From: a virus
Length of the DNA: 64,000 bases
IMG/VR virus record: IMGVR_UViG_3300050821_005814
Span: 42,806-106,805 of that record
Reading direction: 5' to 3' (one strand)
A program made the translations under genes and the position numbers. Under the pieces are notes generated by a model. That model ran no database searches. It was not told where the DNA came from and was given only the letters and a program-made list of their open reading frames with translations. Positions 4,955 to 63,256 of this stretch are shown here, in pieces; position 1 is the first letter of the stretch, and each line of letters starts with the position of its first letter.

Positions 4955-5284
4955 TTATAGTGACTCGCGCTTGATGCGCGCACGTTGTTCGACTTTTGCA
5001 TGACGCACTGCATGGAGTAGTTCAAACAATGACGCATGCGCTAACCAAGAAGCGAAGTCGCGCTTGCGCACACCATCCGACTCCGCATACATCATCAACC
5101 CAAGCGTCTGCACATCGCTGCCTTCACGCACTACCATGTGCTGCAAGTCAGCGCGCGGCACAAAGCCTGCTTTCGCCCACTCAACGCGAATTGCGCGACG
5201 CATGCGATAGGTAGCGACATGCGTGATCTCTTTGTCTTCATCCGTGCGCGGCGGCCGATGCCAGCTCACTTGTACGTCGCCCAT
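4955..5284 (-). CDS. Hypothetical protein, basic, helical
   Basis: The 109-residue product starts MGDVQVSWHRPPRTDEDKEI; an in-frame ATG four codons earlier is an alternative. It is rich in Arg and Ala with helices towards the end (FASWLAHASLFELLHAVRHA). It overlaps the end of the upstream gene by 19 bases. No family is recognised. Confidence 0.5.
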   Translation of the reverse strand: MGDVQVSWHRPPRTDEDKEITHVATYRMRRAIRVEWAKAGFVPRADLQHMVVREGSDVQTLGLMMYAESDGVRKRDFASWLAHASLFELLHAVRHAKVEQRARIKRESL

Positions 5285-5559
5285 GGATGCGAGCATGGAT
5301 CAGTCGTCGGCCAGTAGTTCTTCTCAACGGCAATGTTCACGCCGTTCTCGCACTCAATGAGCATCGTGCGTGATGGAGGTGCGGTCGTCAGCACTGACCC
5401 AGCAGGCGGGGAATTCTGCTGAGGCCAAGGCGGATCGTTCAACGCCCCCTCATCGCACAGCGTGATCATACCCTTGACATTATCCCACACCATAGTGCAT
5501 TCCGGCGCAGGCGACGCAGCAATCGTCAGGAGAGCGGCAAGCAAAGCTAGTGCGCGCAT
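5266..5559 (-). CDS. Small exported protein
   Basis: The 97-residue product has a classic signal peptide (MRALALLAALLTIAASPAPE) and then a Cys-containing, Pro-rich mature part with four Cys residues, suitable for disulphides in the periplasm. Function unknown. It is one of several exported or membrane products in this operon. Confidence 0.6.
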   Translation of the reverse strand: MRALALLAALLTIAASPAPECTMVWDNVKGMITLCDEGALNDPPWPQQNSPPAGSVLTTAPPSRTMLIECENGVNIAVEKNYWPTTDPCSHPWATYK

Positions 5560-5843
5560 TTGACTACATCCTGCAACGCATCCAATGGCAGCGAGTAACG
5601 CTCATGCACGAGACGAACGAACTTGTCCGCATCCCACTTGAACGTCAGCACCATCGAGTAGCGCTGCGCCTTCTGCGCATCGGTTGGCTCGTCCGCGTCG
5701 CACGTGTAGCACTCAAGCGCAATGTCCGCGAGATCATCGACTGCTGATGCAGGCATCGATGTGAAAGTCGTCAGCGCCTTTGCGGCGCCCTCGATCACCG
5801 CATGTATGCGGTTGATGCCAGCACCCTTCGAGTAGGTGACCAT
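5547..5843 (-). CDS. Hypothetical protein, alpha-helical
   Basis: The 98-residue product is mostly helical (IHAVIEGAAKALTTFTS; DALQDVVKCAH) and lacks a signal peptide. Its start overlaps the upstream stop as TAATG and its end overlaps the next start by 13 bases. No family recognised. Confidence 0.55.
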   Translation of the reverse strand: MVTYSKGAGINRIHAVIEGAAKALTTFTSMPASAVDDLADIALECYTCDADEPTDAQKAQRYSMVLTFKWDADKFVRLVHERYSLPLDALQDVVKCAH

Positions 5844-6013
5844 TATCGTGTCTTCTCAGCCCCCATCACAAAGCAGTGCGCTGATGCTAGCTGCGTCGCT
5901 TGTATCCACTGCGCTGCTAGATCACACGCCTGCAGGTTTGCCCAACCATCCTTGATGGCAACCCCATGGCTGCTCACCGTGATCAGGACTATACCTGCAA
6001 GCAAGCCGCGCAC
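5843..6013 (-). CDS. 56-residue exported or membrane-anchored protein
   Basis: I place the start at GTG 6013, because the longer frame from ATG 6064 would overlap the upstream gene by 50 bases with an unnatural N-terminus. From GTG the product begins MRGLLAGIVLITVSSHGV, a signal or anchor segment, and continues with a short mature part containing two Cys. Function unknown; start uncertain. Confidence 0.5.
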   Translation of the reverse strand: MRGLLAGIVLITVSSHGVAIKDGWANLQACDLAAQWIQATQLASAHCFVMGAEKTR

Positions 6014-6014
6014 G

Positions 6015-6203
6015 CTACTTGTCCTTGAAGAAGGCACCCAAGAGCGAGTTGATGAAGCTGCCATCGCCTTTCGGTAGCATCAAACCAGTCACCTCACGCA
6101 ACGTGCGCGGTCCAATGCCGCCAAGCTTACCGTTGGAGCGTGTGCGGCGCATGCTATTGCGACGTTCAGCGCGATAGCGGCGTAGGCTATTCCCTTTCGG
6201 CAT
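6015..6203 (-). CDS. Very basic 62-residue protein
   Basis: The product begins MPKGNSLRRYRAERRNSMRR and ends NSLLGAFFKDK. The Arg-rich N-terminus could bind nucleic acid or membrane. ATG 6203 overlaps the stop of the 59-residue gene upstream (TGATG). Function unknown. Confidence 0.5.
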   Translation of the reverse strand: MPKGNSLRRYRAERRNSMRRTRSNGKLGGIGPRTLREVTGLMLPKGDGSFINSLLGAFFKDK

Positions 6204-16913: not shown

Positions 16914-17546
16914 ATGGCTAACAAGACTGTCTACGACCTGCTGCTCGCCTTCGTGAAGGAGCAGGATGCTGACTTCGAGGAGCGCACCGAGAAGGAGACC
17001 GACCAGAAGTATCTCGCGCGCATGATGACCGTCATCTCGGAAGCAGACGAGGAAGTCTGGAACGGGCTCGACGAAGACGCGCAGAGCTGGTTCAACGACG
17101 CGGCGATCGCGCGCAAAAAGCGGAAGGATGTCGACCTGCCAGACGGTTACGAGGCAGCGCCTGTGCCGGAGAAGGCAGCGCGCAAGAAGTCCGGTGCTGA
17201 GGCACTCGCTGAGACGACCGCCAAGAAGGCGGCTGGCAAGAAGGCGGCTGCACCTGCAAAGAAGGAAGCAGCTAAAAAGCAGGCTGCCCCGGCGAAGAAG
17301 GCGGCTGCCAAGAAGGAAGCTGCACCGAAGAAGGCTGCTGCTGCGACGAAGCCGAAGAAGGAACTGTCGGCTGCGCAGTTCATGCGGCAACTCGTCATCA
17401 AAAAGCACAACATCACAAACGAGGAAGTCGCGGAGAAGGTCGCCGCCAAGTTCGAGGACATCAGTGCAGCCACAATCGCCGCAACCGCGGGATTCACGCG
17501 AAGCGTCATTCGCGACATGATCGAGATGGGCGTGCTATCGAGTTAA
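16914..17546 (+). CDS. Histone H1-like Lys/Ala-rich protein
   Basis: The 210-residue product has an acidic N-terminal part (1-70), then a tract of AAKK- and PAKKA-type repeats at about residues 80-145 (KKAAGKKAAAPAKKEAAKKQ), and a C-terminal folded part (SAAQFMRQLVIKKHNITNEE). The repeats look like bacterial H1-like and AlgP-type DNA-binding tails. It probably coats or condenses DNA, or binds RNA. It has its own promoter and terminator. The function of the end domain is unknown. Confidence 0.75.
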   Translation: MANKTVYDLLLAFVKEQDADFEERTEKETDQKYLARMMTVISEADEEVWNGLDEDAQSWFNDAAIARKKRKDVDLPDGYEAAPVPEKAARKKSGAEALAETTAKKAAGKKAAAPAKKEAAKKQAAPAKKAAAKKEAAPKKAAAATKPKKELSAAQFMRQLVIKKHNITNEEVAEKVAAKFEDISAATIAATAGFTRSVIRDMIEMGVLSS

Positions 17547-22522: not shown

Positions 22523-22681
22523 ATGACGCGCATTGCAACTGGACTAGCGATAGCAGCAGCTATCGCTAGTATTTTTATGGGGATCCGGTTCATCAGCAAT
22601 AGCTGTGCGATGGGCGACCTCAATAGCGCTTATTCTCACTCTACGCAGGAGCGCAAAGATGGCGCTACCACTCAACGGTAG
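22523..22681 (+). CDS. 52-residue membrane protein
   Basis: The product starts MTRIATGLAIAAAIASIFMG, one membrane helix, and has a short polar tail. It ends 23 bases inside the polymerase gene. Function unknown. Confidence 0.5.
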   Translation: MTRIATGLAIAAAIASIFMGIRFISNSCAMGDLNSAYSHSTQERKDGATTQR

Positions 22682-25232
22682 TCTATTTGAGGACATTCCA
22701 TTACCAACGACCATCCCAAAGACGCGTCGCTCAGGTGGCGGCGTAGCACGCGCGAAGCGCCAGCTTAGCCCAACTGAACGAGGATGCGATCACTGCCCCC
22801 TGCGCGAAACGTGGCCCCGCCTCACATCCCCACGCATGCCTGCATGCGGGAACACAGACGACCCCGACATCTTAGTGCTTGGCGAGGGGCCGGGCGAGGA
22901 AGAGGATGCAGAGGGAGAAGTGTTCATAGGCAAGAGCGGCAAGCTCCTGCGCCAATTTATCCCTGGTAGGTTTCGCGACCGCTTAGCATTCCAAAATGCT
23001 GTGCGTTGCCGCCCAGACGACAATCAAACGCCTGACGCTGCCGAGCTACATGCATGCAGCATTCACGTCGACGCTGACATAAAGCAGCTAGGCGTTGGTT
23101 ATATCCTCGGCGTTGGAGGTGTTCCGCTCTCCCGCTTCGTGCGCGGCAAGACAGCATCCATCCTTGCGATCCACGGCGTGCGCTTCCCCGTCGAGATCAA
23201 CGGTGAGACGTTATGGTACTACCCTGTGATGCACCCCTCGTTTGTCATGCGTATGGGCGATAGCAACGAAGGGCGGGGTGAAGGTCCTGCGATGCCTGTG
23301 TTCCGCGCTGACATGAAGCGCTTCTTTGCGGAAGTCGACTCATGGCCGCGTCCAGTCATCACGCCTATGAGTCCAAAGGATGTGCTGCTACCGCGGACGC
23401 GCGATGAGGCCGAGGCGCTGCTCGCTAAGATGCATGCTCCGGTCGGTCTTGATCTTGAAACGTCATCGCCGCATCCAGACCGCGTACCAAAGCCCTATAT
23501 GATCGGCGCCAAACTCGTATCAGCAGCAATTAGTGACGGGAAGACAACCTTCGCGTTCGCAGTTGACGGTAACGAATGGGGACTGGACTTCCTGCTACAA
23601 ATTGCAGAGGAGCACGAATGGATCGCGCAGAATGCCAGCTATGAGCTAGCCTGGCTGATCTACATGTCGCAGACAATGCGGCGCAATCGTCCGCTCAAAC
23701 GATGCCAAGATACCATGGCGCTTGCGCGCATTTACCATCAGCGCGAAACTCTCCTGTCGCTCGCTGCGATCTCGCGCATACATCTCGGCGTTGATGTCAA
23801 ACAGATCATGGAGATCAACACAACGCGTCTTGATGCCTACCCAATCGAGGAGGTTTTGCAGTACAATGGGTTGGATGCACTAGCAACAGCCCTCATCCAT
23901 CGCAAACTGCATAAGCGCGTCGACCCCATGCTGTACGAGCAGATCATGGGCCGCACATACTCTGTCGTTGACATGGAGCTTGCAGGCCTGCCTGTGTCGA
24001 TTGAGGTAGCTGAGAAGCTAGCGGTGAAATGGAAAGCTAAAGCAGATGAGGCTGAAGAGGCTGCTAAGAAGCTGCATGAGGTACGCGCTTATGAGGCCGC
24101 TGCGCAGGTAGCATTCTCCATCAGCAAGCCAGCGCAGGTCGGTGAAGCGCTTGTGCTGCACGGCAAGATCAACCTGCCGAAGACCGAGAAAGGGAAGCAG
24201 TACAACACGAAGGATGAGATCCTCAATGCGGAGTGCCCCGATCATCCATTAGCGAAAGCAGTGCTGAGTTGGCGTGAAGCAACGAAGGTGCGTTCGACCT
24301 ATACGCTGTGTGTGATCGAGGTGCCAACCATCTACAAGGATGGCATGCTGCATCCCGGTTACAACACAATGCTCGTGTCGACCTTCCGCTTGTCGTCAGA
24401 CGACCCCAACATTCAGAACTGGCCGAAGCGCAGCGCTGCGACGCGTGAGGTACGCAGCATGATTGAGGTGCCAGAAGGTTACGTTCTCGTCCCAATGGAC
24501 CAGGGGCAGATTCAGGTACGCATTATCGCAATGGCGTCTGGCGACAAGAAGCTGATCAAGAATCTCGTTGAGGGGCATGACACGCACACAGACTGGCTGA
24601 ACAACACGATCGACATCTATCCCGACTACATAGACCGCCTCGCGCAGAAGGTCGGCGAGAAGGACGAGAAGAAGATCCGTAAGTACGGCCGCAATATCAT
24701 CAAGACAGACTTCGTCTTCTACAGTCTGTTCGGCGGGGGATACAAAGGCATCGCGCGCACAACAGGCATCCCTGAGCGCCTATCAAGGGAACTGCAAGGC
24801 GAGTTCTTCCTCGAGTTCAAAGGTGTGAAGGACTGGCAGAATAGGCAGCGCAAGCAATACGCGGACACAGGCTCGATCACCGGACTGTCTGGTGAAACGC
24901 GCCATGCAATCTTGTGGGGCAATGAGCCGCTTAACACGCCGATCCAAATGGGCGAAGCGCAGATAGTCCTTGAAGCGCAAGCTGAGTTGGCGACGAAGGC
25001 GCGTGAGACCGGCGACAAGCACTACCTACCGCGCATCAGCGTGCATGATGACCTGACCTTCATACTACCCGATGACAACCGGCTCATGGGGTATATTGAG
25101 GAGATAGCTGAGGTCATGCTGAAGGTGCGCTACGACTGGCAAATATGCCCCTTGAGCTTGGAGGTTCAGCTTGGCACCAACTGGGCGGACCTAACTGAGG
25201 TCCATACGTTCACGGGGGACTATATGAGATGA
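22659..25232 (+). CDS. DNA polymerase I with N-terminal uracil-DNA glycosylase domain
   Basis: ATG 22659 follows AGGAG. The 857-residue product has three parts. Residues ~40-235 match family-4/5 UDG: C-x2-C, LGEGPGEEEDAEGEVF, NAVRCRPDDNQTP and VMHPS. Residues ~255-430 are a 3'-5' exonuclease (GLDLETSSPH near 263; WIAQNASYELAWL; YNGLDALATA). Residues ~470-857 are the family A polymerase: motif A VPMDQGQIQVRI near 612, motif B RNIIKTDFVFYSLFGGG, motif C SVHDDLTF near 793. Motif A lacks the usual Glu of DYSQIE. UDG-polymerase fusions are known in phages such as SPO1. It is the replicative polymerase. Confidence 0.92.
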   Translation: MALPLNGSLFEDIPLPTTIPKTRRSGGGVARAKRQLSPTERGCDHCPLRETWPRLTSPRMPACGNTDDPDILVLGEGPGEEEDAEGEVFIGKSGKLLRQFIPGRFRDRLAFQNAVRCRPDDNQTPDAAELHACSIHVDADIKQLGVGYILGVGGVPLSRFVRGKTASILAIHGVRFPVEINGETLWYYPVMHPSFVMRMGDSNEGRGEGPAMPVFRADMKRFFAEVDSWPRPVITPMSPKDVLLPRTRDEAEALLAKMHAPVGLDLETSSPHPDRVPKPYMIGAKLVSAAISDGKTTFAFAVDGNEWGLDFLLQIAEEHEWIAQNASYELAWLIYMSQTMRRNRPLKRCQDTMALARIYHQRETLLSLAAISRIHLGVDVKQIMEINTTRLDAYPIEEVLQYNGLDALATALIHRKLHKRVDPMLYEQIMGRTYSVVDMELAGLPVSIEVAEKLAVKWKAKADEAEEAAKKLHEVRAYEAAAQVAFSISKPAQVGEALVLHGKINLPKTEKGKQYNTKDEILNAECPDHPLAKAVLSWREATKVRSTYTLCVIEVPTIYKDGMLHPGYNTMLVSTFRLSSDDPNIQNWPKRSAATREVRSMIEVPEGYVLVPMDQGQIQVRIIAMASGDKKLIKNLVEGHDTHTDWLNNTIDIYPDYIDRLAQKVGEKDEKKIRKYGRNIIKTDFVFYSLFGGGYKGIARTTGIPERLSRELQGEFFLEFKGVKDWQNRQRKQYADTGSITGLSGETRHAILWGNEPLNTPIQMGEAQIVLEAQAELATKARETGDKHYLPRISVHDDLTFILPDDNRLMGYIEEIAEVMLKVRYDWQICPLSLEVQLGTNWADLTEVHTFTGDYMR

Positions 25233-26284
25233 GTAAGATTCCTGAATCTTATCGCGCCATGGATCGCATATGGTTGATCCAGAAGCATCCGTCCGACGAC
25301 AGGTATCGCGTCTGGACCTACGAAGACGATATCGACGGTCCAGCTAATGCTGTGCTGTTGAATGGCGCGACAAGTACATCGCTCGAGCAAGCAGGCGAAG
25401 ACGTGCTGCACAATATGTATGGCGCTACCAAGCGCCAAGAACTTCGCTTGGAAGATGAGCTCAAGCTTGTCCGCAGGCTAAGCGGCGAGATTCGCACAGC
25501 CATCGACAACCCGCGGATCATTGGGCGTTTCATGCGCTCTTTGGAAGCAACGGCTGAGCTCGAGAAGGAGCCGCGCTTTGATGAAGTAGAATGGAGTCTG
25601 CCACGGCAGACCGTACAAGCATTGGCGCAAGCCGAAGCGCAAAACATACTGTGCGCTTTGCCGCCTACTGCCTTGGTGTTTAGGCAGCACTCCGGTGCAC
25701 TACTCAACGATATGGTACATGCATGGAACGCCACATTTTACAATGGGCGCCTATGGGACAAGCAGCAGGTGGATGCTGCCAGTCAAGCCATAGGGTTGCC
25801 GCAGGGGCGCTGGCGGTGCTGGATCAAAAACTGGAGCAATCCTGACATTGCTGAGCAACTGCGCACCTTCAAGTTCAAAGGTAAGCTGTACTGGTGCGCA
25901 CGGGCATCAAAGCATGCAATCCCAGAGGGCTACGTTGAACAGTTTGAGCGTCCAACGCGCCCACGGACTAAAGACCGTTACCTGAACGGTATGGGTTTGG
26001 TGCGCGATGCCGCACAGCACCAATTAGATCTTATAGCACGAAACAAGATGCCTGAGCTGCATTTCAAGCTTGCGCCTAAGTTCAACCAGCGCCTCGCCGC
26101 CAAGATCGATATCTGCATGCAAAAGACATCTGGTGCTATACCTGCGAAGGTCATATGCGAAAGGGTCGGCGCGAGGTCACCTACCAACAAGCGCCGCGTA
26201 TACAATATCCTCGCGCGCTTGGCCGGAGAAGGCTACATCCAACTTGGTAAGGATGGCTTCTATACCTTAGCGTCGCGCGCATGA
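25229..26284 (+). CDS. Hypothetical 351-residue protein with C-terminal winged helix
   Basis: It starts in an ATGA overlap with the polymerase. The last 70 residues (SGAIPAKVICERVGARSPTN, NKRRVYNILARLAGEGYIQL) form a winged-helix DNA-binding pattern. The rest is helical with many aromatic residues and no known motif. Coupling to polA suggests a replication role. Confidence 0.6.
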   Translation: MSKIPESYRAMDRIWLIQKHPSDDRYRVWTYEDDIDGPANAVLLNGATSTSLEQAGEDVLHNMYGATKRQELRLEDELKLVRRLSGEIRTAIDNPRIIGRFMRSLEATAELEKEPRFDEVEWSLPRQTVQALAQAEAQNILCALPPTALVFRQHSGALLNDMVHAWNATFYNGRLWDKQQVDAASQAIGLPQGRWRCWIKNWSNPDIAEQLRTFKFKGKLYWCARASKHAIPEGYVEQFERPTRPRTKDRYLNGMGLVRDAAQHQLDLIARNKMPELHFKLAPKFNQRLAAKIDICMQKTSGAIPAKVICERVGARSPTNKRRVYNILARLAGEGYIQLGKDGFYTLASRA

Positions 26285-26673
26285 GCGACTGGATTCCACC
26301 CGAGACAGGCGGCAGCTTCGTTGCGCTGCCTGTCTCTGCTGTGCGCGATGCAGCACATGCAACGCTCACCAACATTGATCAGCATCGCACCGAGCTGCAT
26401 GCGCAAGCGATTGAAGCGGCCCAAAGCGGCTGGTTCGGCAAGCGCTCAAAAGAACGAGCGGAACGACTGTATCGGCAGACGCGCCTACATCGTGCGAATA
26501 GCAACTGCTATTCAGAACACTACTCTGCCGCTGCGCAATTGTATGCACTGACAACCGCTGCGCTGCGATTGCAAGCTGATGATGAAATGATGGTGACTGT
26601 GGCCGACTTCCGTATGATCGGCAGTGCGTGGCTCAAACTCCACGAACCAGCCAGTACCAGTAACAAGGAGTAG
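26281..26673 (+). CDS. Hypothetical 130-residue protein
   Basis: The product is helical (MSDWIPPETGGSFVALPVSA...), with a basic stretch FGKRSKERAERLYRQTRLHR. It begins in an ATGA overlap with the upstream gene. No family recognised. Confidence 0.55.
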   Translation: MSDWIPPETGGSFVALPVSAVRDAAHATLTNIDQHRTELHAQAIEAAQSGWFGKRSKERAERLYRQTRLHRANSNCYSEHYSAAAQLYALTTAALRLQADDEMMVTVADFRMIGSAWLKLHEPASTSNKE

Positions 26674-26677
26674 CATT

Positions 26678-27679
26678 GTGGCAAAGCGTGCGCGGGTTGC
26701 AGTCGAAGATGATGAGGTTCTCCAAGAAGCACCGCCGATCAAGGTCGCCGAACCACTGATCACTGCTTACCGCCCGCAGATGTGGGGGGAACTCATTGGG
26801 CACGAGGAAGCGATCCCCAAGCTTCGCCGCACGATCCAATCAAACAGCCATGCACATGCATATTTGCTGGTCGGGCCGTCTGGCGTCGGGAAGACAACGA
26901 TTGCCCGCCTAATCGCACAGGAGTTCGAAGCTGAAGTGCTGGAAGTCGATGCTGCGACCTACAGCGGCAAAGACGAGATGAAGCAGCTCATCGAGACCGG
27001 CCGCCACATGTCGCTATCAGGTGCAGGCAAGCGCCTCATACTCATGAACGAGGTGCAGCGGCTGTCAAAGGCTGCATGGGATGCGCTGCTGACAACGCTC
27101 GAGGAACCCCCGCCGCATCTCTACTTCGCGCTGACGACGACTGAACCAGACAAGGTGCCGGATGCTGTCAACACACGCTCCTATCGCGTGCTGCTGCGAT
27201 CTGTTGGACACAAGGACATTGAGACGCTCCTCGAGGCTGTCATAGCAGCCGAAGGGTGGGAAGTCGTTGACGATGTGTTTAATGCAATCGTCAACGCGTC
27301 CAATGGTCAACCCCGCCTCGCGCTGTCAATCCTACAGTCGGCGTACGATGCTGAGTCAAGCGATGAGGTTACGCGCATTGCAGGGCTAATCGACCAGGAC
27401 AACAGCCCGCTGATCGAGCTCTGCCAGTTCCTGATTGCAGGCAAGACGAACTGGGAACTCATTCAGCGCATGCTGCAACGCGTCAATGACGATGACTACC
27501 AGCCCGGCCTGACGATATGCGGGCGTTACATCGCAGCCGTTGCTATCAAGTCCGAGAACGCATCGACTGCACAACGCGCGCTGTCGCTCATCGAGGCATT
27601 CGCGGCGCCAGCAGCGACATTCGACCCCAAGGTGCAGTTCCTCGCAGCAATCAGCCGCTATGTATGGAGTATGAAATGA
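26678..27679 (+). CDS. Clamp-loader AAA+ ATPase (DnaX/gamma-like)
   Basis: GTG 26678 follows AAGGAG. The 333-residue product has YRPQMWGELIGHEEAIPKLR, Walker A LLVGPSGVGKTTIA at residues 67-80, LILMNEVQRLSKAAWDALLT and LEEPPPHLYFALTTTEPDKV, exactly the DnaX order (Walker B then TLEEPP.H..F...T..P.K.P). It should open the sliding clamp onto DNA. The Walker B Asp is replaced by Asn (MNEV instead of IDEV), though the Glu is kept. The zinc module of DnaX is absent, as in RFC small subunits. Confidence 0.85.
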   Translation: MAKRARVAVEDDEVLQEAPPIKVAEPLITAYRPQMWGELIGHEEAIPKLRRTIQSNSHAHAYLLVGPSGVGKTTIARLIAQEFEAEVLEVDAATYSGKDEMKQLIETGRHMSLSGAGKRLILMNEVQRLSKAAWDALLTTLEEPPPHLYFALTTTEPDKVPDAVNTRSYRVLLRSVGHKDIETLLEAVIAAEGWEVVDDVFNAIVNASNGQPRLALSILQSAYDAESSDEVTRIAGLIDQDNSPLIELCQFLIAGKTNWELIQRMLQRVNDDDYQPGLTICGRYIAAVAIKSENASTAQRALSLIEAFAAPAATFDPKVQFLAAISRYVWSMK

Positions 27680-28191
27680 CGCGCGAACAAAAGGTCATCT
27701 TTGACCGACTCAAGGCACGCCTGACTGTCAGTACGTTGCATCTCGAAGAAGACCTCATAGAGCTGCCAATGTTCGTCATGGAGATCGGCGAACACCATGC
27801 GGATGCAATCAAGGAGCATGGCGCGGCTGAACACGAACTCGAGATCGTCGAGGCTGATGTCGCTGACCTGCTGCGCCGCAAGCCAATTCCCGCTCCTACC
27901 AAAGCGAGCGGCGACACAGCGACAAAGACGCGTTCTGAAGCGCAGATCAAAGCAGAGTTACCGCTGCATGAGAAGGTGATTGACGCAGCCACTGCTGTCG
28001 CTAACGCGGCGCATGACGTCGCATTGTGGCGCGCATTGCAGGATGCATCGCGCACAAAAGATCGGGCAGTACATCGGGTAGCTGAGCTTGTCATAACTGG
28101 CTACCTCACAAAGGACACGGTATATAAGGAGGGACGGCGCAATTTGAATGAAGCGCGTCAGCGCAGGACAAGGGAACGAGAGGCAACGTGA
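27676..28191 (+). CDS. Hypothetical 171-residue coiled-coil protein
   Basis: It starts in an ATGA overlap with the clamp loader. The product is almost all helix, with charged coiled-coil runs (EHELEIVEADVADLLRRKP, and a basic end NLNEARQRRTREREAT). It sits between clamp loader and SSB genes, so a replication or recombination accessory role is likely. No family assigned. Confidence 0.6.
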   Translation: MTREQKVIFDRLKARLTVSTLHLEEDLIELPMFVMEIGEHHADAIKEHGAAEHELEIVEADVADLLRRKPIPAPTKASGDTATKTRSEAQIKAELPLHEKVIDAATAVANAAHDVALWRALQDASRTKDRAVHRVAELVITGYLTKDTVYKEGRRNLNEARQRRTREREAT

Positions 28192-28346
28192 TCTCAATCG
28201 CAACCGTCAGCGCGGTGCTAGCAGCAGTCCTTGTTGGGCTGCTGCTTGTCTACCTGGCGTTTCGGCTTGCGGGGGCCGCTTGGTACCGCTCCAAGCAAGA
28301 GTTCAGTAACCCAGGTACCGTGACGACGACCAACAACGAGGAGTAG
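28188..28346 (+). CDS. 52-residue single-pass membrane protein
   Basis: GTG 28188 overlaps the previous stop as GTGA. The product reads MISIATVSAVLAAVLVGLLL, then VYLAFRLAGAAWYRSKQEFS and a polar Thr/Asn/Glu tail: one membrane helix and a short tail. The coupled start and exact fit between genes support it. Function unknown. Confidence 0.6.
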   Translation: MISIATVSAVLAAVLVGLLLVYLAFRLAGAAWYRSKQEFSNPGTVTTTNNEE

Positions 28347-28349
28347 ACT

Positions 28350-29660
28350 ATGCCATACCGTTATCAGGAACGTTCAAAGCAGGATTGGGACAAGCGTCGC
28401 AATCAAAAGGTCGGCGGGGACTTCCAAGGCGTCATCCTCAGCGACTTCCCAGTCTACAAGGTGCGTGACGGCGCCAACAATGTCCGCATCTTCCCGCCGA
28501 CATGGGATGCGCCCGACCACTATGGCATGGACGTCTTCATTCACAACAACGTCGGCCCTGGTCGCGCTGTCGTGCTTTGCCTGCGCAGCCACAAAAATCG
28601 CAAATGCCCGCTATGTGAAGCGCAGGTCGCGGCGGACAAGGACGGCGACGAAGAGTCCGCAAAGGCGCTGAAGGTCAATCGCCGTGTGCTCGTCTGGATC
28701 CTCGATCGCGATGACGAAGCAAAGGGACCGCAGCTTTGGGCGATGCCGGCCAGTCTGGACAAGGACATCACCAAGGCGACTGAAGACCGACAGACGCATG
28801 CGACTCTCAACATCGACGACCCAGTCGAGGGACATGATGTCTACTTCGACAAGGAGGGCAGTCGCCTGACGACGAAGTACAACGGCGTGCAGGTTGCACG
28901 ACGACCGTCAAAGGTTGCCGGCAAGTGGATGGAATATGTCGTCAAGAACCCGCTCGATACTGTTCTGCGTTGGCGCAACTACACGGAAATGCTCGCGCTA
29001 TATGAGGGCGGCACAGCGGACGATGACGACAAGGACGATGATCGTCCAGCGCGCGGACGTTCTCGCGACGATGATGACGATGATCGCAGACCAGCGCGTA
29101 ACAGGTCACGCGACGACGATGATGCCCCACCAGCGCGTCGTCGGCGGGATGATGATGACGACGATGATCGTCCACGCAGACCGCGGCGCGAAGACGATGA
29201 TGACGATGCGCGGTCCGCTCGTCGACGCGAGGAAGACGATGAGCCGCCTCGTCGCACTCGCCGTGACGATGACGATGATGCAGACGACCGCAGACCAACA
29301 ACAGCCCGTCGCAGTCGGCGTGAAGACGATGATGACGCGCCTGCGCCGCGCAGGACGACACGCGAGAAGCTGGATAAGGAGGACGACGATCCGCCCCCAA
29401 GGTCTTCCCGCCGCAACAAGGACCTGGACGATGATGATGTCCCCTGGGATCGGTTGGAGGGGAAGGAACGCGGGAAGGGGAATGGGAAGGACGATCCGGA
29501 CGAGGATCGCGCGAGCTCCAGGCGCTCCCGGGACGCGGATGACGAGGATCGTCCCCGTCGTAGCAGGGGAGAGGATGACGACCCCCCTGCAAGGCGCTCT
29601 GGGAGCTCCCGCGCGGAGGAGCTTAGCCGCGCCTTCAAAGAGCGTAACCGGCGCGACTGA
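28350..29660 (+). CDS. Single-stranded DNA-binding protein with a long Asp/Arg tail
   Basis: The 436-residue product has an N-terminal gp32-like DNA-binding domain (1-215), including NNVRIFPPTWDAPDHYGMDV and a zinc-type H..CL..H, C-x2-C cluster (CLRSHKNRKCPLCEAQ). From about residue 225 to 415 it is almost pure alternation of Asp runs and Arg-rich patches (DDDDDDRRPARNRSRDDDD). Normal SSB proteins end in a short acidic tip; this polyampholyte tail is nearly half the protein. It would coat unwound DNA and could contact polymerase, helicase or RecA. recA-like follows immediately. Confidence 0.78.
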   Translation: MPYRYQERSKQDWDKRRNQKVGGDFQGVILSDFPVYKVRDGANNVRIFPPTWDAPDHYGMDVFIHNNVGPGRAVVLCLRSHKNRKCPLCEAQVAADKDGDEESAKALKVNRRVLVWILDRDDEAKGPQLWAMPASLDKDITKATEDRQTHATLNIDDPVEGHDVYFDKEGSRLTTKYNGVQVARRPSKVAGKWMEYVVKNPLDTVLRWRNYTEMLALYEGGTADDDDKDDDRPARGRSRDDDDDDRRPARNRSRDDDDAPPARRRRDDDDDDDRPRRPRREDDDDDARSARRREEDDEPPRRTRRDDDDDADDRRPTTARRSRREDDDDAPAPRRTTREKLDKEDDDPPPRSSRRNKDLDDDDVPWDRLEGKERGKGNGKDDPDEDRASSRRSRDADDEDRPRRSRGEDDDPPARRSGSSRAEELSRAFKERNRRD

Positions 29661-42702: not shown

Positions 42703-44133
42703 ATGGACGACACCGATCAAGAGGACGAAATCCTCCTCCCCGTCGAATTGGAGGAATCAGTTCTGACGGGACTTGTCTGGAGCGATGAACTAGCACCGCA
42801 GATCATCATCCGCCTAAAAGCTGAAGACTTCTCATCACGCCAGTACCAGCGTGTCGCACGGCAAGCAATCACGCATCTCGAGCGCTACGGCAAAGCGCCC
42901 GGCGCCCATATGCCCGAACTCCTGTCGCGGGACCTGACGCGCGGCAGTGAAGGGCAACTGCTGCGCATGCTGCTGCAAGGCATGGAGCAGGTCGCACCAA
43001 GACTGCAGTCAAGCTTCGTGCTCGAGCACCTGGACGACTTCCTTGAGACGCGCCAGATCCAGAAGGCAATTGAATTAGCTTCTGACGCCTTGCAGCGCGG
43101 GGAGCTCAAGGTCGCTAGGGAAGCGATTCAGCAGCAACAGAGCATCAAGCAGGAGGGTTCGCCGGGCGTCTATCTGCATGAAGCAGACAAGATGCTGTCC
43201 TTTCTCAACCGATCCGCGGACAGCGGCTTTACGAGCGGCGTTGACACTTTGGACCAATTCGGCGCGACACCAGCCCGCAAGACGATGCTACTGTTCCTTG
43301 CTCCGCCGAAGAAAGGTAAGTCATGGTTCGTCGTCAACTGCGGCAAACGCAACCTCATGCATCGCAAGTCTGTGCTGCACATCACGCTCGAGAATAGCTG
43401 GGAGCTGACAGCGCAGCGCTACGCACAGGCGATCAATGCGATGACATCAGACGCTGATGCGACGATACGCGTGACGCGCTTCAAGAAGGACGACCTGCAA
43501 CGGCTCGCGTCCATTGAGCTTGACTCCATTGAGGCCGAAGCGATCTCACGCGGGAACAAGGAGAAGATAGCGCGCAAGTTGAAGGCGTTCGAGCGGCGCC
43601 CCAAACTGCTGATCAAAGAGTTCCCCATGTCGACGCTGACGGTTGGGCAGTTGACAGCCTACCTGGACTACCTCGAACGCGTCGAGAAGTTTAAGCCTGA
43701 CCTGCTACTCATTGACTCTCCCAACCGTATGGCAATGGATTCACGCAACCTGCGTACAGACCTTGCGCAGATCTTTGCGCGGCTGCACGGCGTGGCATCG
43801 TCCCGCAATATGGCGCTAGTATGCGTGCATCATGGGAACAGGGGGTCAGCGACGGCGAAGACAGTGACGAGCACCATGTCATCTGAGGACTACACGGTCA
43901 TTGGCATTGCTGACCTCATCATCACCTACAGTCAGACATCCCGCGAGAAGACAAAGGGGCTTGCGCGGTTGCTTGTCGATGGTGCGCGTAATGCGCGGGA
44001 CAACTTTTCGGTCATGATCACGCAAGCCTATGACATCGGGCAGTTCTGCCTCGACAGTGTCTACTTTAGCAAGTTCGCGGCTGAAGAGAATTCGCGTATG
44101 ACAGGGGAGAAGGAAGATGACGGAAAAAGCTAA
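42703..44133 (+). CDS. Replicative DNA helicase, DnaB-like
   Basis: The 476-residue product has an N-terminal helical domain (LEESVLTGLVWSDELAPQII...), Walker A LAPPKKGKSWFV near 204-215, HITLENSW, LLLIDSPNRM (Walker B) and a RecA-like core with MALVCVHHGNRG. It should unwind DNA at the fork, working with the primase encoded at 13.4 kb. It starts three bases after queE. Confidence 0.85.
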   Translation: MDDTDQEDEILLPVELEESVLTGLVWSDELAPQIIIRLKAEDFSSRQYQRVARQAITHLERYGKAPGAHMPELLSRDLTRGSEGQLLRMLLQGMEQVAPRLQSSFVLEHLDDFLETRQIQKAIELASDALQRGELKVAREAIQQQQSIKQEGSPGVYLHEADKMLSFLNRSADSGFTSGVDTLDQFGATPARKTMLLFLAPPKKGKSWFVVNCGKRNLMHRKSVLHITLENSWELTAQRYAQAINAMTSDADATIRVTRFKKDDLQRLASIELDSIEAEAISRGNKEKIARKLKAFERRPKLLIKEFPMSTLTVGQLTAYLDYLERVEKFKPDLLLIDSPNRMAMDSRNLRTDLAQIFARLHGVASSRNMALVCVHHGNRGSATAKTVTSTMSSEDYTVIGIADLIITYSQTSREKTKGLARLLVDGARNARDNFSVMITQAYDIGQFCLDSVYFSKFAAEENSRMTGEKEDDGKS

Positions 44134-44503
44134 CTGGCTCTATCGTTGCTACCACTGTGATCAAGTCTTCAAACGCGAGGCAGCAGCCATCCACTTCGGC
44201 ATGCATGAGCTTGACGCGCCTGCATGCAAGCTTGCTGCTGATCTGCCTGGCCTCATAGAGCTACTGCGCAGTAAGGATGCAGAGCTTGCGCAAATGCGGC
44301 GGGAGGACAGTCCAACGCATCGACAGTTCTATGAGCTAGGCTCCCAGTACACGCGCGATGTGACTGCTGCGCAGGAACAAGGTTACAACAAAGCGCTGCG
44401 CGATCTCGAGAACGGCGACCTTGAGAAAGCGCATGCAGCGCGCGTGCTCCCAGGCATCATCAAGGCGCTGACCAGCAATGCCGATCTCCAAGAAAGCGAT
44501 TGA
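44117..44503 (+). CDS. Small protein with C2H2-type zinc finger
   Basis: The 128-residue product has YRCYHCDQVFKREAAAIHFG then MH, a C-x2-C-x12-H-x3-H arrangement. A helical rest follows. It overlaps the helicase genes on both sides. It may bind DNA or RNA; role unknown. Confidence 0.6.
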   Translation: MTEKANWLYRCYHCDQVFKREAAAIHFGMHELDAPACKLAADLPGLIELLRSKDAELAQMRREDSPTHRQFYELGSQYTRDVTAAQEQGYNKALRDLENGDLEKAHAARVLPGIIKALTSNADLQESD

Positions 44504-46157
44504 GGCGTTCCTAACGAAGCCGCTGCCTCATCTGCCCAAATTCAAAGGCGCGGACGAGGCAGCGCTTATGCGCCTGATCTACGACTCGACAGGACAACCC
44601 TACGCACCAATCACAACCCCCCGCAAGCATCAGCTTGATGGCGTTGCATTTGCGCTGTATCAGCGCCGCGCTGTGCTGCAATACGACCCTCGGTTGGGCA
44701 AGACAAAGATGGCGCTCGACTGGGCTATGCACCTGCGCAAAGCCAATCTCTGGCGGGCAGGCAAGAAGGGGCTTGTCATCGCGCATTCGCCTGTCGGGTT
44801 GTCAGTATGGAAGCATGAGATCGCGAAGCACTCCAATCTATCAGCATGCTATGTGCAGAACGATGTGCAAGAGTTCATCGACGCGCTAGCAACGGATGTC
44901 GACCTCATCGTGCTACCTTGGTCTGGCTTGCAGGCAATCTTCTCCGAGAAACGCCTAGCGCAGCGGGGACGACGCGCGGGGAAGCCTAAACTTTACCCCT
45001 TCTATGCAGCGCTGCACATTGCGGCGGAGGAGTTCGGGCTCGTCATTGCGGACGAGATCCACATGTGCAACAACCATATGTCGCTGCGTTTCAAGATCGC
45101 TGCCAAGATCATTGAGGGGTGCCGCTTTCGCTTGGGACTGACTGGCACACCAATCGGCCGCAACAAGCTTGCGATATGGCCGTCCAGCTATCTCCTAGAT
45201 GAAGGAGCAGCGCTCAGCGCAAGCTACCCATTTTTCGAGGCTGCTTTCAGCGCGCGCAAGAAGAACTGGTTCGGGCGGCACAAAGGGCTGTTCAAAAACG
45301 AGAAGACTGGCGTTGAGACCTGGGCCAACTACGACTACGTGTTTGACAATGACAAGCTACCGCTCCTGCAGGCGAAGCTTGCCACCCTAGCGATCAGCTA
45401 CAAGCTGAAGGAGGTACGCGCTGTTGATGTGCGGCCTGATGTCATCGAGCTGACCATGTCGCTTGAACAGGCGGAGGCGTACAACGAGGTCGTGCAGCGT
45501 GCACGCATGATTCACAGCGGAGATGTGCATGAGATTCAGAACTCGTTTGTGCGCTTGCGGCAGATCTCGTCGGGGTTCATACCCTTCACGGACAGCGATG
45601 GTAAGCAGCATATGCGGCAGTTCACGCACCCGTCGAAGGTTGAGTGGCTGTCGGACTTGCTCGAGAAGATAGACCCTGACTTAGCGCTCATCATCTTTCA
45701 TGAGTTCACGGAGTCAGGGGACCGCATATGCGGACTGCTCGAGGCTGCTAAGATCAAGCATGCATGGTTCTACGGCGGCACAAAGGACAAGGACGCGATT
45801 GGCAAGTTTCAGCGCGGCGACATCAACGTGCTTGTCGCTAACACGGCGAAAGGCGGCATGTCAATTGACTTACATCGCGCTGACTACATGTTGTTTTATG
45901 AGAGTCCCGTCAGTCCCATCACACGCACGCAAGCCGAGGCGCGTCCGCTAGCTGAGCAGCGCGGCAAGCGTCCTCTGATTATTGACGACCTCGTCTGTTC
46001 ACCAATCGAACGCAGAGTGCGTGAGCTCGTACGTGAAGGTAAGAACGCGCTCAAAGCATTGACGAGTGCACCGCGCAGTTGGGAGATGCTTGACCTGCAT
46101 GCATTAGGCAAAAAGAAACCCCCAGGCCGTAAAGCCCAGGGGCGCTTGCCGCTTTAG
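44478..46157 (+). CDS. SNF2/DEAD-like helicase
   Basis: The 559-residue product has PRKHQLDGVAFALYQRRAVL then YDPRLGKTKMAL (Walker A), LVIADEIHMCNNHMSLRFK (DEIH box), RLGLTGTPIGR, and in the second half LIIFHEFTESGDRI, INVLVANTAKGGMSIDLHRA and YMLFYESPVSPITRTQAEAR. This is the two-domain SF2 layout of phage SNF2-type remodellers. It may act in DNA repair or replication. Confidence 0.88.
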   Translation: MPISKKAIEAFLTKPLPHLPKFKGADEAALMRLIYDSTGQPYAPITTPRKHQLDGVAFALYQRRAVLQYDPRLGKTKMALDWAMHLRKANLWRAGKKGLVIAHSPVGLSVWKHEIAKHSNLSACYVQNDVQEFIDALATDVDLIVLPWSGLQAIFSEKRLAQRGRRAGKPKLYPFYAALHIAAEEFGLVIADEIHMCNNHMSLRFKIAAKIIEGCRFRLGLTGTPIGRNKLAIWPSSYLLDEGAALSASYPFFEAAFSARKKNWFGRHKGLFKNEKTGVETWANYDYVFDNDKLPLLQAKLATLAISYKLKEVRAVDVRPDVIELTMSLEQAEAYNEVVQRARMIHSGDVHEIQNSFVRLRQISSGFIPFTDSDGKQHMRQFTHPSKVEWLSDLLEKIDPDLALIIFHEFTESGDRICGLLEAAKIKHAWFYGGTKDKDAIGKFQRGDINVLVANTAKGGMSIDLHRADYMLFYESPVSPITRTQAEARPLAEQRGKRPLIIDDLVCSPIERRVRELVREGKNALKALTSAPRSWEMLDLHALGKKKPPGRKAQGRLPL

Positions 46158-58966: not shown

Positions 58967-59374
58967 TTAGGAACACAAGCCTGCAGCAAGCCAACTGTTG
59001 CGGGCTTTCGAGAAATTGAGTTGCGTCGCATTGGACTGCCAGGTAACGGCCGGTCCGAATGCAGTGCCAGCTGGATCACCAATCGGCCATGCCGCGAACA
59101 CACGATCAATGTAGAGCGCACGCGCATACTCAGCGACGGGTGTGCCAAACGATGTCACGTCGATCTTGACGACATACGACCGTCCAGGCACACCGCCACC
59201 CACCGTCAAGTCGACGCATTGCCCGTTGACTGTCAGCGCTGCAATCACTGCTTCGCTAAGTCCATTCGGCGCGATAGCTGCCGACACGGACTCAATGACT
59301 GTGCTGCCAAGCGCGCATGCTGCGTCGATCTTATAGGTCTTGACGCTGCCTGGCTGCTTACGCCATCTGCGCAT
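58967..59374 (-). CDS. Hypothetical phage structural protein, 135 residues
   Basis: The product has VDLTVGGGVPGRSYVVKIDV in the middle, a beta-sandwich pattern found in small phage proteins next to tail fibres. The start overlaps the stop of the tail fibre gene by one base. It could be a fibre adaptor. Confidence 0.6.
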   Translation of the reverse strand: MRRWRKQPGSVKTYKIDAACALGSTVIESVSAAIAPNGLSEAVIAALTVNGQCVDLTVGGGVPGRSYVVKIDVTSFGTPVAEYARALYIDRVFAAWPIGDPAGTAFGPAVTWQSNATQLNFSKARNSWLAAGLCS

Positions 59375-60594
59375 CAGCTATACTCCTCAACGATGATAAG
59401 CCCGCCAGACCCAGAACCGCCAGCGAATGGGCCGCTACTTGCAGTAGCATTGGTGCCCCCACCGCCACCACCGAAGCCGCTGCCCGGCTGACCAACAGAC
59501 TGCCCCGACCCAGCACCTCCCGCGCTATACATTGAGGTGCCGCCATTCGATGCAATGTTGAGGATGTTAACGCCGCCCGCTTGCCAAACAGTCGTACCGC
59601 CTTGCGTAAGACCTCCCGCACGCCATGCATAGGCATTTGTCGTATTGACAGCCGTTGATCCAGCAAACACGACTGTCGCTGTCGTTGAGTACAGTCCGCC
59701 GCCCTGACCAAAGCCGTTCCCTGGCTGCTGCAACAATGTACCAAAAGATGTGTTACCACCAGACCCGCCATTGCTACCTGATGAAACGCCGCCCGCACCG
59801 CCAGTACCGCCAGCACCAATGGTGATAGCGAGCGATGCGCCAATGGCAGCAGCAGAGAAGATACCAATGCTCCAATGCCCGCCAAGACCGCCGCAGCTAA
59901 TTGAATCCTGCCCAACGCCTGGCGTTGCTGTACCACCAGCACCCCCACCTGCTCCCTGCACCTGCACGCGCGCCGAGCGCATGCCAACTGTTGGCGTGTA
60001 GGTGCCGCTTGCAGTGAATGCTTGCACGTTTAGCAAGCGTCCAGGAATGACCGGCGCATCGCTGACTAGCTGGAAGCTTGTGCCATCGTAGACGACCATG
60101 ATCATGGCACCAGCTAGCAACTCGCCGCCAAACATCGGCGTGCCGTCAGGGTGCACAAGCGGCGTTGCTGTGAAGCTGTTCGATGTAAGGGTCACGGCTC
60201 CTGTATTCGTGTGCGCGACCTTGATGCGCAGCGGAATCCCGACCAAACCGGCGAGGGAGCTAGGCGGATTTGCTAGCACGATCGCGAGCGCGTTGACAGC
60301 GCCACTGTCGACCTGATAGGTGCCACCGACCGAGCGGATCAAGCCAATGAGATTAGCTTCGATTGTCGCAATCGTGCCATCGTCAATGACTGTCTGCCCC
60401 GTGACATCGCAAATCGCTTGCGCGACGACAGATGCAATGATGGATGACTGGCGCCAGACCTTGTTCAGCTGTATGGACTGAGCGAGACCAGCCGAGAAGC
60501 CACCTGTCTGCCATGGCTGACCGACATAGGCCGCTTGCGTAATAACGTTCGCACCAGCCGCACTGGCAAAGGGTAGGAAGTCTTGTTCGGGCAC
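59374..60594 (-). CDS. Tail fibre with Gly-rich C-terminal domain
   Basis: The 406-residue product shares its first 85 or so residues with the 60609-61145 product (MPEQDFLPFA, NVITQAAYVGQPW, TVIDDGTIATIEANLIGLIR). Then comes a long Gly/Ala/Ser-rich region with GGAGSGQSVGQPGSGFGGGG, like the poly-Gly tips of tail fibres that bind the host surface. VQAFTASGTYTPTVGMRSAR marks the start of that domain. Likely part of host recognition. Confidence 0.75.
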   Translation of the reverse strand: MPEQDFLPFASAAGANVITQAAYVGQPWQTGGFSAGLAQSIQLNKVWRQSSIIASVVAQAICDVTGQTVIDDGTIATIEANLIGLIRSVGGTYQVDSGAVNALAIVLANPPSSLAGLVGIPLRIKVAHTNTGAVTLTSNSFTATPLVHPDGTPMFGGELLAGAMIMVVYDGTSFQLVSDAPVIPGRLLNVQAFTASGTYTPTVGMRSARVQVQGAGGGAGGTATPGVGQDSISCGGLGGHWSIGIFSAAAIGASLAITIGAGGTGGAGGVSSGSNGGSGGNTSFGTLLQQPGNGFGQGGGLYSTTATVVFAGSTAVNTTNAYAWRAGGLTQGGTTVWQAGGVNILNIASNGGTSMYSAGGAGSGQSVGQPGSGFGGGGGGTNATASSGPFAGGSGSGGLIIVEEYS

Positions 60595-61154: not shown

Positions 61155-61832
61155 TTATCCCATCACACTAGGGGGTACTGCGATCGAACCGACATCAAGC
61201 CCTGAGATCAGCGCTGTCTCGACATCAAAGCCAAACAGCGGCGCACCGGGGACAGATGTCAAATAGCTGAACTGCTGCACACCAGACGGCCGCAGCGGCA
61301 GATGCTCATTGAGTACGAGCAGTTGCACAAGCACAGGTGGCAGCGTGCCGCCAATCGCAACTGTCATCGTCATGTCCTGGTTGTCCTGCACAAGCAGCAT
61401 AGCACCAGGATAGGGCGCGAGCAGCATTTGGTAGATGTTCCATGCGCTAGTCAGCTCACCATTCCACTCGTTAGCAGCCGCTTTCGCGTAGAGAAACTCC
61501 CGGTAGAGATCGTCATACAGCGCAATCAAGCCCTGCGTTGGTGTGAACGGTCCAAACCAAATGGCTTGGTCAAATCCCTGGCCTGATGTGTCGAACGAAA
61601 AGAAGATGCCGTTGATCGGCGCGTTGATGTAGCGCGTCGCACCAATCCACTGTCCGACGATATCAAGCTGTACGCCTATCGCCTCGTCCAGGTCAAACGC
61701 TTGCGGGATGTTGTTGATGAACTCCTGCATTGCGACCTGCGGTGCAAGCACAAGCTCAAGCGTCGCCATGTACTTCGGCTTGCCTTGATGCTGGCTGGGT
61801 ACCAGCGCTAGATAGTCGGCGAGTGTGCGCAT
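61155..61832 (-). CDS. Baseplate protein, Mu gp48-like
   Basis: The 225-residue product begins MRTLADYLALVPSQHQGKPK and has FDLDEAIGVQLDIVGQWIGA, then YDDLYREFLYAKAAANEWNG and LAPYPGAMLLVQDNQDMTM, the order of the Mu gp48 / P2 gpI family. It joins the tail fibres to the baseplate. It overlaps the baseplate J gene by one base. Confidence 0.82.
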   Translation of the reverse strand: MRTLADYLALVPSQHQGKPKYMATLELVLAPQVAMQEFINNIPQAFDLDEAIGVQLDIVGQWIGATRYINAPINGIFFSFDTSGQGFDQAIWFGPFTPTQGLIALYDDLYREFLYAKAAANEWNGELTSAWNIYQMLLAPYPGAMLLVQDNQDMTMTVAIGGTLPPVLVQLLVLNEHLPLRPSGVQQFSYLTSVPGAPLFGFDVETALISGLDVGSIAVPPSVMG

Positions 61833-63256
61833 TAGACGGTCGCAATCGTGATGTTGCTGGTGAGGATTGACGCTTGTTCAAAGAACGCCATGCTGATGTC
61901 CGTCGCGGACGGTTCGCCAGTCACAGTCGCGCCGAGCAATGCGGAGGCAGGTGTTGTTGCATTGTAGCCGCGCTGCACTGTCCAGACGAGCGTACCATTG
62001 CCGCCTGTCACAAGCATCTGTTCGGTGCCAATCTGAATGATGTACTGTCCCTGACCTGCTGACGGGAAGTTAGCGGCAGACGCGACAGGGATGGTTGTCT
62101 GCGAATTGGTGATGTTGCTCGTAAGCGTTGTCGTCGCTGACCGCGTGATCGTCACGGACTCAAGCTCAAACGTGTTGGGGTCGTTCGCATTGTTGGTGAT
62201 CGCGTACGGCCCCTGCAATTGCGCGGGGACATAGAGCCGCGTCAGGAACACGGACTGCCCAATGGGAAGCTGTCCAAGGTAGTTGGCAATCGACGCTTGG
62301 ATGTTCGAACCAATGACGCTGTTGTACCCAGGCAGCGGATGGATCGTGACAACGACTTTCAGCGCAACGGCGGACGGACGGAAGAAATTGATGACCTGCG
62401 GGAGCCCGTTCACGTCTGTGACTGTCTCAGACGTCGTACCATAGGTACCGCAGCCGATTGACTTCCCAAGCTGGATCGTTTGCGCAATCTGCAGCGCAAT
62501 GCCACCCTGTACAACGAATGCAATGCTATTCCTCGGCACGCCATTCGCATCAGTTGTCGATGTCGCGTTCTCGTAGGGTGAGACAGCTTGCACACCCGAC
62601 AGCGCAAGCACCTGCGCTTGCAGATTGTCAACGGTCGTCTGCTCAGGCGTTTCAGTCGAGACAGCTTGCCGCTGCCGCAACTGGACATCCATCTCAACAG
62701 GCTGCCCGACAGACGTTGCTGCTGCGACAGTCGCTGATTGCCAACCATTCGTTGGCGTCGACATCGTCAGCACTGTGCCAATCGGCGGCCCGACTATCGC
62801 TCCTGGTGCATTGCAGATAGCTGTGACGATGATTGAGCCGCTAATGGGGATCGTTGTCGAGAACGTCCATGAGTTGGTACCGTCGCTCACGACAGCGTTT
62901 GTCAATGGTATGCCCGCATTGCCAACAACAGTGATATCCATCTCGCTGTTCGTTGGCACCTTACGCCGCATGTTGTTGATCTTGACATTCGACGACAGGC
63001 CAACACCTTGTGCGGTCGAGGGCGAGAACGAGTTGTAGCAGGCGACGGCTTGCGCGCACACATCGTTGTAGGATGTCGACAGGAAGCCTACGAGCTCGCC
63101 ATCCTGACTATCATTCCCAAGGTAGACATCAGCACCATAGATCGCCTGGTAGCCAGTCGTGAAGTAGTTCTGAATGGAGGTGAAGGAAGGTGCGTGAATG
63201 CCAGTCGCGTCAATCGTGCAGACGGGAGGCGTTGGCAGCGTAATCGAGCCGCTCAT
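61832..63256 (-). CDS. Baseplate J-like protein (Mu gp47-like)
   Basis: The 474-residue product has QNYFTTGYQAIYGADVYLGN, AVACYNSFSPSTAQGVGLSS and VAAATSVGQPVEMDVQLRQR, the order of Mu gp47/P2 gpJ baseplate wedge proteins. It is preceded by a gp46-like gene and followed by the gp48-like gene, the usual baseplate order. Confidence 0.87.
   Translation of the reverse strand: MSGSITLPTPPVCTIDATGIHAPSFTSIQNYFTTGYQAIYGADVYLGNDSQDGELVGFLSTSYNDVCAQAVACYNSFSPSTAQGVGLSSNVKINNMRRKVPTNSEMDITVVGNAGIPLTNAVVSDGTNSWTFSTTIPISGSIIVTAICNAPGAIVGPPIGTVLTMSTPTNGWQSATVAAATSVGQPVEMDVQLRQRQAVSTETPEQTTVDNLQAQVLALSGVQAVSPYENATSTTDANGVPRNSIAFVVQGGIALQIAQTIQLGKSIGCGTYGTTSETVTDVNGLPQVINFFRPSAVALKVVVTIHPLPGYNSVIGSNIQASIANYLGQLPIGQSVFLTRLYVPAQLQGPYAITNNANDPNTFELESVTITRSATTTLTSNITNSQTTIPVASAANFPSAGQGQYIIQIGTEQMLVTGGNGTLVWTVQRGYNATTPASALLGATVTGEPSATDISMAFFEQASILTSNITIATV

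Follow-up and report, generated by a model that had tools for sequence, protein, structure and literature searches.

What does a phage ssDNA-binding protein (SSB) gain from a tail of more than two hundred residues rich in Asp and Arg? The question is raised by a gene in the window, a 64-kb stretch of a 106.8-kb virus record that also encodes a large terminase, baseplate and tail fibre proteins, a family A polymerase, a processivity factor, a clamp loader, DnaB-like (42703-44133) and SNF2-type (44478-46157) helicases, a ribonucleotide reductase and a match to the thymidylate synthase family. A sequence-only reading had described an SSB with an exceptional Asp/Arg tail at 28350-29660, quoting the peptide DDDDDDRRPARNRSRDDDD from it. 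Both the coordinates and the peptide (residues 240-258) are right, and the protein is of the gp32 type. It lies among genes of replication and recombination:

22605-25232, + strand: family A DNA polymerase, upstream of the SSB gene (Pfam DNA_pol_A 4e-50)
26624-27679, + strand: clamp-loader ATPase, upstream of the SSB gene (PHROG 5846 1e-62)
28350-29660, + strand: SSB open reading frame, ATG to TGA, 436 aa
29660-30658, + strand: RecA/UvsX-like recombinase (PHROG 97 UvsX-like 7.8e-55, Pfam RecA 8e-40)

The SSB stop codon and the start codon of the recombinase share one base. Of 71 relatives, 69 have a RecA homologue downstream of the SSB gene and in the same orientation, 64 have a clamp loader and 55 polA, shortfalls that contig ends partly explain. 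The polA/clamp loader/SSB/RecA-UvsX cluster is conserved across the SSB family.

The gp32-type core

28350-29009, + strand: gp32-type ssDNA-binding core, residues 1-220, with an N-terminal helix (10-17) and an OB-type core
28542-28616, + strand: candidate zinc site H65, C77, C86, C89, from conservation and alignment with T4

G220 is the last conserved residue of the core and the tail is counted from there. Residues 1-223 score 28.6 bits against Pfam PF08804, over the curated cut-off of 26.8; the full-length protein falls slightly under it at 26.4 bits. The same family is matched at E 0.01 or better by 65 of 68 relatives. The non-acidic long tail marks the window protein as a variant of this family, in which its membership is kept because the Pfam model covers only the core. 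The Pfam scan of the SSB found gp32 alone and no match to the bacterial SSB core family, and the PHROG family that it matches (34306, 1.3e-38) has no assigned function. Sequence searches of the PDB for a solved relative gave no real one, so that a comparison of folds was needed. The AF2 model of the core, built with 68 sequences, has a pLDDT of 91, and Foldseek returned only six PDB chains at E ≤0.001, all of them T4 or RB69 gp32 (E 4.8e-8 to 1.4e-6, 12-14% identity).

H65 is kept in 57 of 68 relatives, C77 in 55, and C86 and C89 in 54, the second Cys being missing from 14. The three cysteines align with C77, C87 and C90 of T4 gp32, zinc ligands of that protein, and the His is offset by one in the alignment. 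The Pfam match, the predicted fold, the gp32 structures retrieved with it and the aligned cysteines together identify the window protein as a gp32-type phage SSB, not a bacterial-type one, and the core is presumably the part that coats ssDNA. Beyond the core fold (Foldseek prob 1.00 for the best chain) and the three aligned cysteines of the candidate zinc site, it shares with T4/RB69 gp32 a basic N-terminal helix, a putative C-terminal partner-docking region and a replication/recombination neighbourhood. It is unlike them in its low identity to the solved structures and in its C-terminal part: the C-domain of T4 gp32 has ~48 residues and is acidic, whereas the window tail has ~215, is of mixed charge and ends in a basic helix.

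A long tail of mixed charge

29010-29657, + strand: Asp/Arg polyampholyte tail, residues 221-436, from composition, kappa, AF2 and lack of a Pfam match

The long tail first noticed is real, but its length had been put at about 190 residues and is nearer 215 (216 aa past G220). It is 30% Asp (64 residues) and 25% Arg (55), with 15 Glu and 8 Lys besides; the charged fraction is 0.66, the net charge per residue is close to neutral at -0.07, and only two residues are aromatic. Its charges are segregated into blocks: none of 1000 shuffles reaches its kappa of 0.26, and their mean is 0.12 (z 4.6). The AF2 model is mostly below pLDDT 55 over residues 221-420 and the tail is predicted to be disordered; it has no Pfam match. 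The peak charged fraction per 150 aa is 0.70 in the SSB as against at most 0.35 in the other large window ORFs tested.

An artefact of GC content or reading frame was considered as the origin of the tail and rejected: the other ORFs have no such tail, and the conserved C-terminal helix described below closes the chain in the same frame and backs the SSB reading frame. Antisense and +1-frame ORFs that overlap the tail are by-products of its stop-free GAY and CGN codons. The tail sequence comes from one assembly; a second contig (L008), 99.98% identical to window positions 23350-29070, ends inside the tail.

At the DNA level, GACGATGATGAC occurs three times, all within the tail, against 0.01 expected. 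The repeat noted earlier therefore exists, but its copies are dispersed. Tandem Repeats Finder (TRF) reports no array in the tail, even at score 40, and a slippage-prone microsatellite was rejected on this ground; with the dispersed copies and the mixed use of GAC and GAT (30:34), the missing array indicates that the repeat is mainly one of the protein. The expectation that the tail would expand and shrink easily fares less well in the absence of an array, and tail lengths are nearly constant in Mardecavirus (147, 148 or 156 aa in eleven records). What can be found elsewhere is one pair of relatives, IMGVR_UViG_3300014492_000107 (5001-6071) and IMGVR_UViG_3300014499_000024 (5001-6137), >99.9% identical where aligned, whose SSB tails differ by a single tandem duplication of 66 bp that keeps the frame. 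This is a natural polymorphism of tail length, and it shows that tail expansion does happen, by duplication of long units.

Relatives and evolution of the tail

A profile scan of viral contigs gave 202 relatives. The analysis took the best 80 of these and added two relatives from bacterial assemblies and others from cultured phages. Removal of near-duplicates, incomplete genes and three very distant relatives left a set of 72 that includes the window protein. A homologue with no tail had been named as the finding that would count against a role for it, and none exists among these 72 complete relatives, taken from the best 80 of 202 and the additions: all have tails, of 74-226 aa (median 128). 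The proposed comparison of lengths in related phages makes the window tail the second longest of the 72; it ranks first for Asp plus Arg. In very distant relatives, from SPO1-like and other phages, the tails have 53-75 aa. Over the 72 tails the median charged fraction is 0.53 and the median net charge -0.08, and the positive fraction rises with the negative one (r 0.71).

The window protein belongs to a 23-member clade with support of 98/99. Within this clade the charged fraction extends from 0.11 in L039, whose tail is rich in Pro, Val and Gln, to 0.67 in the window protein, and the low-charge tails are Pro/Ala/Gln-rich and retain the terminal helix. On the whole tree the high or low charge state switches 15 times. 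Across the relatives, charge is the changeable part of the tail and the end helix the kept part, and the original view of the Asp/Arg polyampholyte as the functional feature is not specifically supported. Charge blocks go beyond chance in 28 of 41 highly charged tails; the highly charged relatives L036 (z -2.2) and L021 (z -2.0) have no blockiness.

In Mardecavirus pairs, dN/dS is 0.13-0.25 for the tail against 0.02-0.10 for the core. Tails of closely related pairs within the window's clade have ratios of 0.15-0.19. Gapped alignments bias the tail values downward. The tail sequence of the relatives is constrained and subject to purifying selection. A helical-looking module of ~50 aa, recognized by eye in the sequences, is present in 28 of 49 tails outside the window's clade and in none of the 23 inside it. 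A Pfam search of tails with the helical module or with Cys clusters found no family.

The family shows other variations. Cys-rich, zinc-ribbon-like inserts stand within the disordered tails of L052, L054, L039 and L051, and those of L054 and L051 have no Pfam match. In the Edwardsiella phage vB_EpM_ZHS (L001, 5752-7122) the core is also preceded by an Asp/Arg-rich stretch, some 80-100 residues long, which places polyampholytes on both sides of it; this was read directly in this phage, and a similar extension in L061 and L073 is deduced from open upstream frames. L001 and L061 are among the relatives with the helical-looking tail module. In Vibrio phage BH21-A1 (L003) the tail has an apparent partial duplication with a frameshift relative to other Mardecavirus, which may be a sequencing error or a real mutation.

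A conserved helix at the end of the chain

29604-29654, + strand: amphipathic basic C-terminal helix, residues 419-435, from clade conservation, profile and AF2

The core of this helix is SRAEELSRAFKER (residues 420-432). Its consensus is SRAxxLRxRFxxR, or in a wider form [SKE][RK]-A-x-x-L-R-x-R-[FLY]-x-x-[RK], with A, L and F on one face and Arg/Lys on the other. The full-length AF2 model has a helix at 419-435, with a pLDDT of about 81 at 421-430, and past the first residues of the tail this is its sole confidently ordered part. The helix occurs in all 23 members of the window's clade. A generic pattern detects it in 62 of the 72 relatives, as compared with a mean of 10.5 (max 19) for shuffled ends and with 6 for mid-tail stretches; the remaining ten lack it by this pattern. 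Motif counts here and below treat relatives as independent, and only the tree-based counts of changes consider relatedness.

A leave-one-out profile of the helix, from which the window protein was excluded, gives the window SSB a score of 18.1, the top of the window's six frames. A search for other proteins sharing the motif covered the 64-kb window and reached only 13.2 for an antisense ORF and 10.6 for the clamp loader, where the match sits 22 residues from the end; a helix shared with other window proteins is not supported. A relocated copy of the N-terminal cooperativity helix of T4 gp32 was rejected as an explanation: the profile reaches only -0.8 on T4 gp32 and at most 3.6 on the N-termini of the SSB family itself. 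A DDDIPF-type tip is absent from the C-terminus of the window SSB, which reads ...SRAEELSRAFKERNRRD. In relative L058 (1650-1964) the tail has no basic helix at its end but LEDQGIPF, a tip of the bacterial SSB type, as if the end of the chain were a docking place.

An internal motif resembling the bacterial SSB tip

29427-29447, + strand: internal SSB-Ct-like motif DDDDVPW, residues 360-366, from motif counts against shuffles

This motif contains the only Trp of the window tail, and a motif of its type arises in 272 of 100000 shuffles of that tail. The strict pattern [DE][DE]x(0,1)[ILVP]P[FW] is present in 9 of 72 tails, where shuffles that preserve composition give 0.17 (max 3), and a looser tip-like pattern in 16 against 3.0; examples are IDDDIPWTRD (L021), DDDEIPFIKD (L044) and EEELPWDEED (L011). 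Only 10 of the 23 members of the window's clade have the internal motif, and its 13 changes on the tree suggest that it has often been gained and lost. In sequence the recurrent motif, [DE][DE]x(I/V/L/P)P(F/W), is similar to the tip of bacterial SSB.

Comparison with other proteins

Known members of the same family are the SSBs of Mardecavirus and Edwardsiella phage vB_EpM_ZHS (PHROG 34306), which share 35-43% core identity, the gene order and mixed-charge tails, theirs being 147-156 aa long. They differ from the window SSB in having a helical, folded-looking tail module and a shorter end motif, SERVRGMRRNR, neither of which it has; in Mardecavirus the Cys ligands are lost.

E. coli SSB is built from a core, a linker of 56 residues and an acidic tip, nine residues long, to which partners bind (PMC7145534). 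The window SSB is similarly organized, with an ssDNA core, a disordered linker and a putative terminal docking motif, but its core belongs to another family, its linker is about four times longer, and its terminal motif is basic and helical where that of E. coli-type SSB is acidic. The E. coli-type tip DDDIPF is similar to DDDDVPW, which in the window protein is internal and has no free C-terminus. The basic-acidic dipeptide (BAD) domains of the U1-70K type are likewise disordered, Arg/Asp-rich sequences of mixed charge. They belong to eukaryotic RNA-binding proteins and have no homology to the tail, in which the charges alternate in longer blocks.

A proposed tether with a docking helix

On balance, the window protein is probably a replication/recombination SSB of a large tailed phage in which a gp32-type core is joined through a long disordered tether to a conserved docking helix. 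The core would coat ssDNA, and the tail would extend outward as a soluble, self-neutralising polymer. The end helix would dock replication or recombination enzymes of the phage, with helicase or UvsX as the foremost candidates, and so bring these enzymes to the coated strand. Proteins that bind SSB tips may have a further docking site in DDDDVPW. The Asp/Arg pattern would be one of several interchangeable tether chemistries, which may tune reach, solubility, competition with ssDNA and possibly condensation. The long tether and end helix would thus replace the short acidic C-domain of T4 gp32.

A precedent is found in T4, where Dda is recruited by a C-terminal peptide of gp32 (248-270) in which A255, V258, L262 and F265 matter: changes of A255/L262 or V258/F265 make Dda binding about ten-fold weaker, and the very acidic end 271-301 binds Dda weakly (PMC11551737). 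Residues 254-262 of T4 gp32 (KADKVADDL) are the only fit in T4 gp32 to the end-helix spacing [KR]Axx[LVIM]xxx[FLYM]. This pattern was chosen after both peptides had been seen; only 23 of the 72 relatives match it, and it has three matches in 5189 residues of other window proteins. The likeness in spacing may be taken as a lead. Against the docking reading count the failure of the end-helix profile to score on T4 gp32, the ten relatives without the helix by the generic pattern and the presence of the internal motif in only 10 of the 23 clade members.

Charge is central to two other explanations. Asp and Arg blocks might attract one another between molecules and give rise, together with ssDNA, to droplets in which the replisome is concentrated. 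Such a role as a condensate driver fits the blocks found beyond chance in the window tail and in most of the highly charged tails, as well as the self-assembly of the mixed-charge basic-acidic dipeptide domains of eukaryotic RNA-binding proteins (PMC8014091). It is also in line with the condensation in vitro of E. coli SSB, for which the linker is needed (PMC12143593), and of T4 gp32, which forms condensates alone with a crowding agent (PMC11951158). Nevertheless, gp32 does so without a tail of this kind, which is hence not required, and condensation would not distinguish the window protein. The charge and blockiness of the tail vary inside the window's own clade, down to the unblocky L036 and L021 and the weakly charged L039, and just two aromatic residues are available in the window tail. 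As blockiness is not common to close relatives, condensation, if acting, would be specific to the window lineage. Condensation through blocky mixed charge is possible, not specifically supported, and as the main role of the tail it is quite unlikely.

The tail may instead regulate DNA binding, with Asp runs that mimic ssDNA and compete for the core and Arg patches and an end helix that bind DNA, so that it would set on and off rates. For T4 gp32, an internal binding of its acidic C-domain at or near the ssDNA site has been proposed (PMC5892887), the E. coli SSB tip likewise binds internally (PMC7145534), and the correlation of positive and negative fractions across tails agrees with such a balance. 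The basic end helix could equally bind DNA. The same clade, however, includes weakly charged tails, and the hydrophobic A/L/F face of the helix is more conserved than a plain DNA-binding patch requires; regulation of this kind is considered unlikely. Harmless, low-complexity filler moulded by repeat duplication would account for the wide drift in composition and for the pair of relatives separated by a 66-bp tandem duplication. It is disfavoured by the constraint on the relatives' tails (dN/dS 0.13-0.25), by the presence of a tail in 72 of 72 and by the conserved end helix, and is highly improbable.

The tether and docking helix can be extended to a broader and distinctly doubtful proposal, in which this whole lineage of gp32-type SSBs acts as a hub for recruitment through a basic, helical C-terminal tip and internal tip mimics, and the polyampholyte tether of the window protein makes replication compartments as well. 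If this were true, the basic helical tip would be the counterpart of the acidic tip of bacterial SSB, and internal DDDDVPW-like mimics would capture SSB-binding proteins of the host. In general, the tails of phage SSBs determine which enzymes gain access to ssDNA in replication and recombination. The family offers dozens of natural versions in which the tether chemistry varies freely and the end helix stays, a natural experiment that could separate the effects of linker charge, linker length and terminal motif on recruitment and condensation. The contributions of linker and tip are a debated question for E. coli SSB, and a literature search found nothing on polyampholyte phage SSBs.

Other features of the window

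The polymerase at 22605-25232 is an unusual fusion, its N-terminal part matching the uracil-DNA-glycosylase superfamily (Pfam UDG 1.3e-15). A 52-aa ORF with a GTG start (28188-28346) lies between ORF 27517-28191 and the SSB gene, and its single long hydrophobic stretch is probably a membrane helix. Tail fibre and baseplate proteins encoded on the - strand at 59374-60594 and 61832-63256 have a very low charged fraction, at most 0.11 per 150 aa. A 210-aa protein at 16914-17546 carries a Lys/Ala-rich repeat (KKAAAPAKKEAAKK...) like the tails of histone H1 or HU, and its gene contains TRF arrays at 17217-17351.
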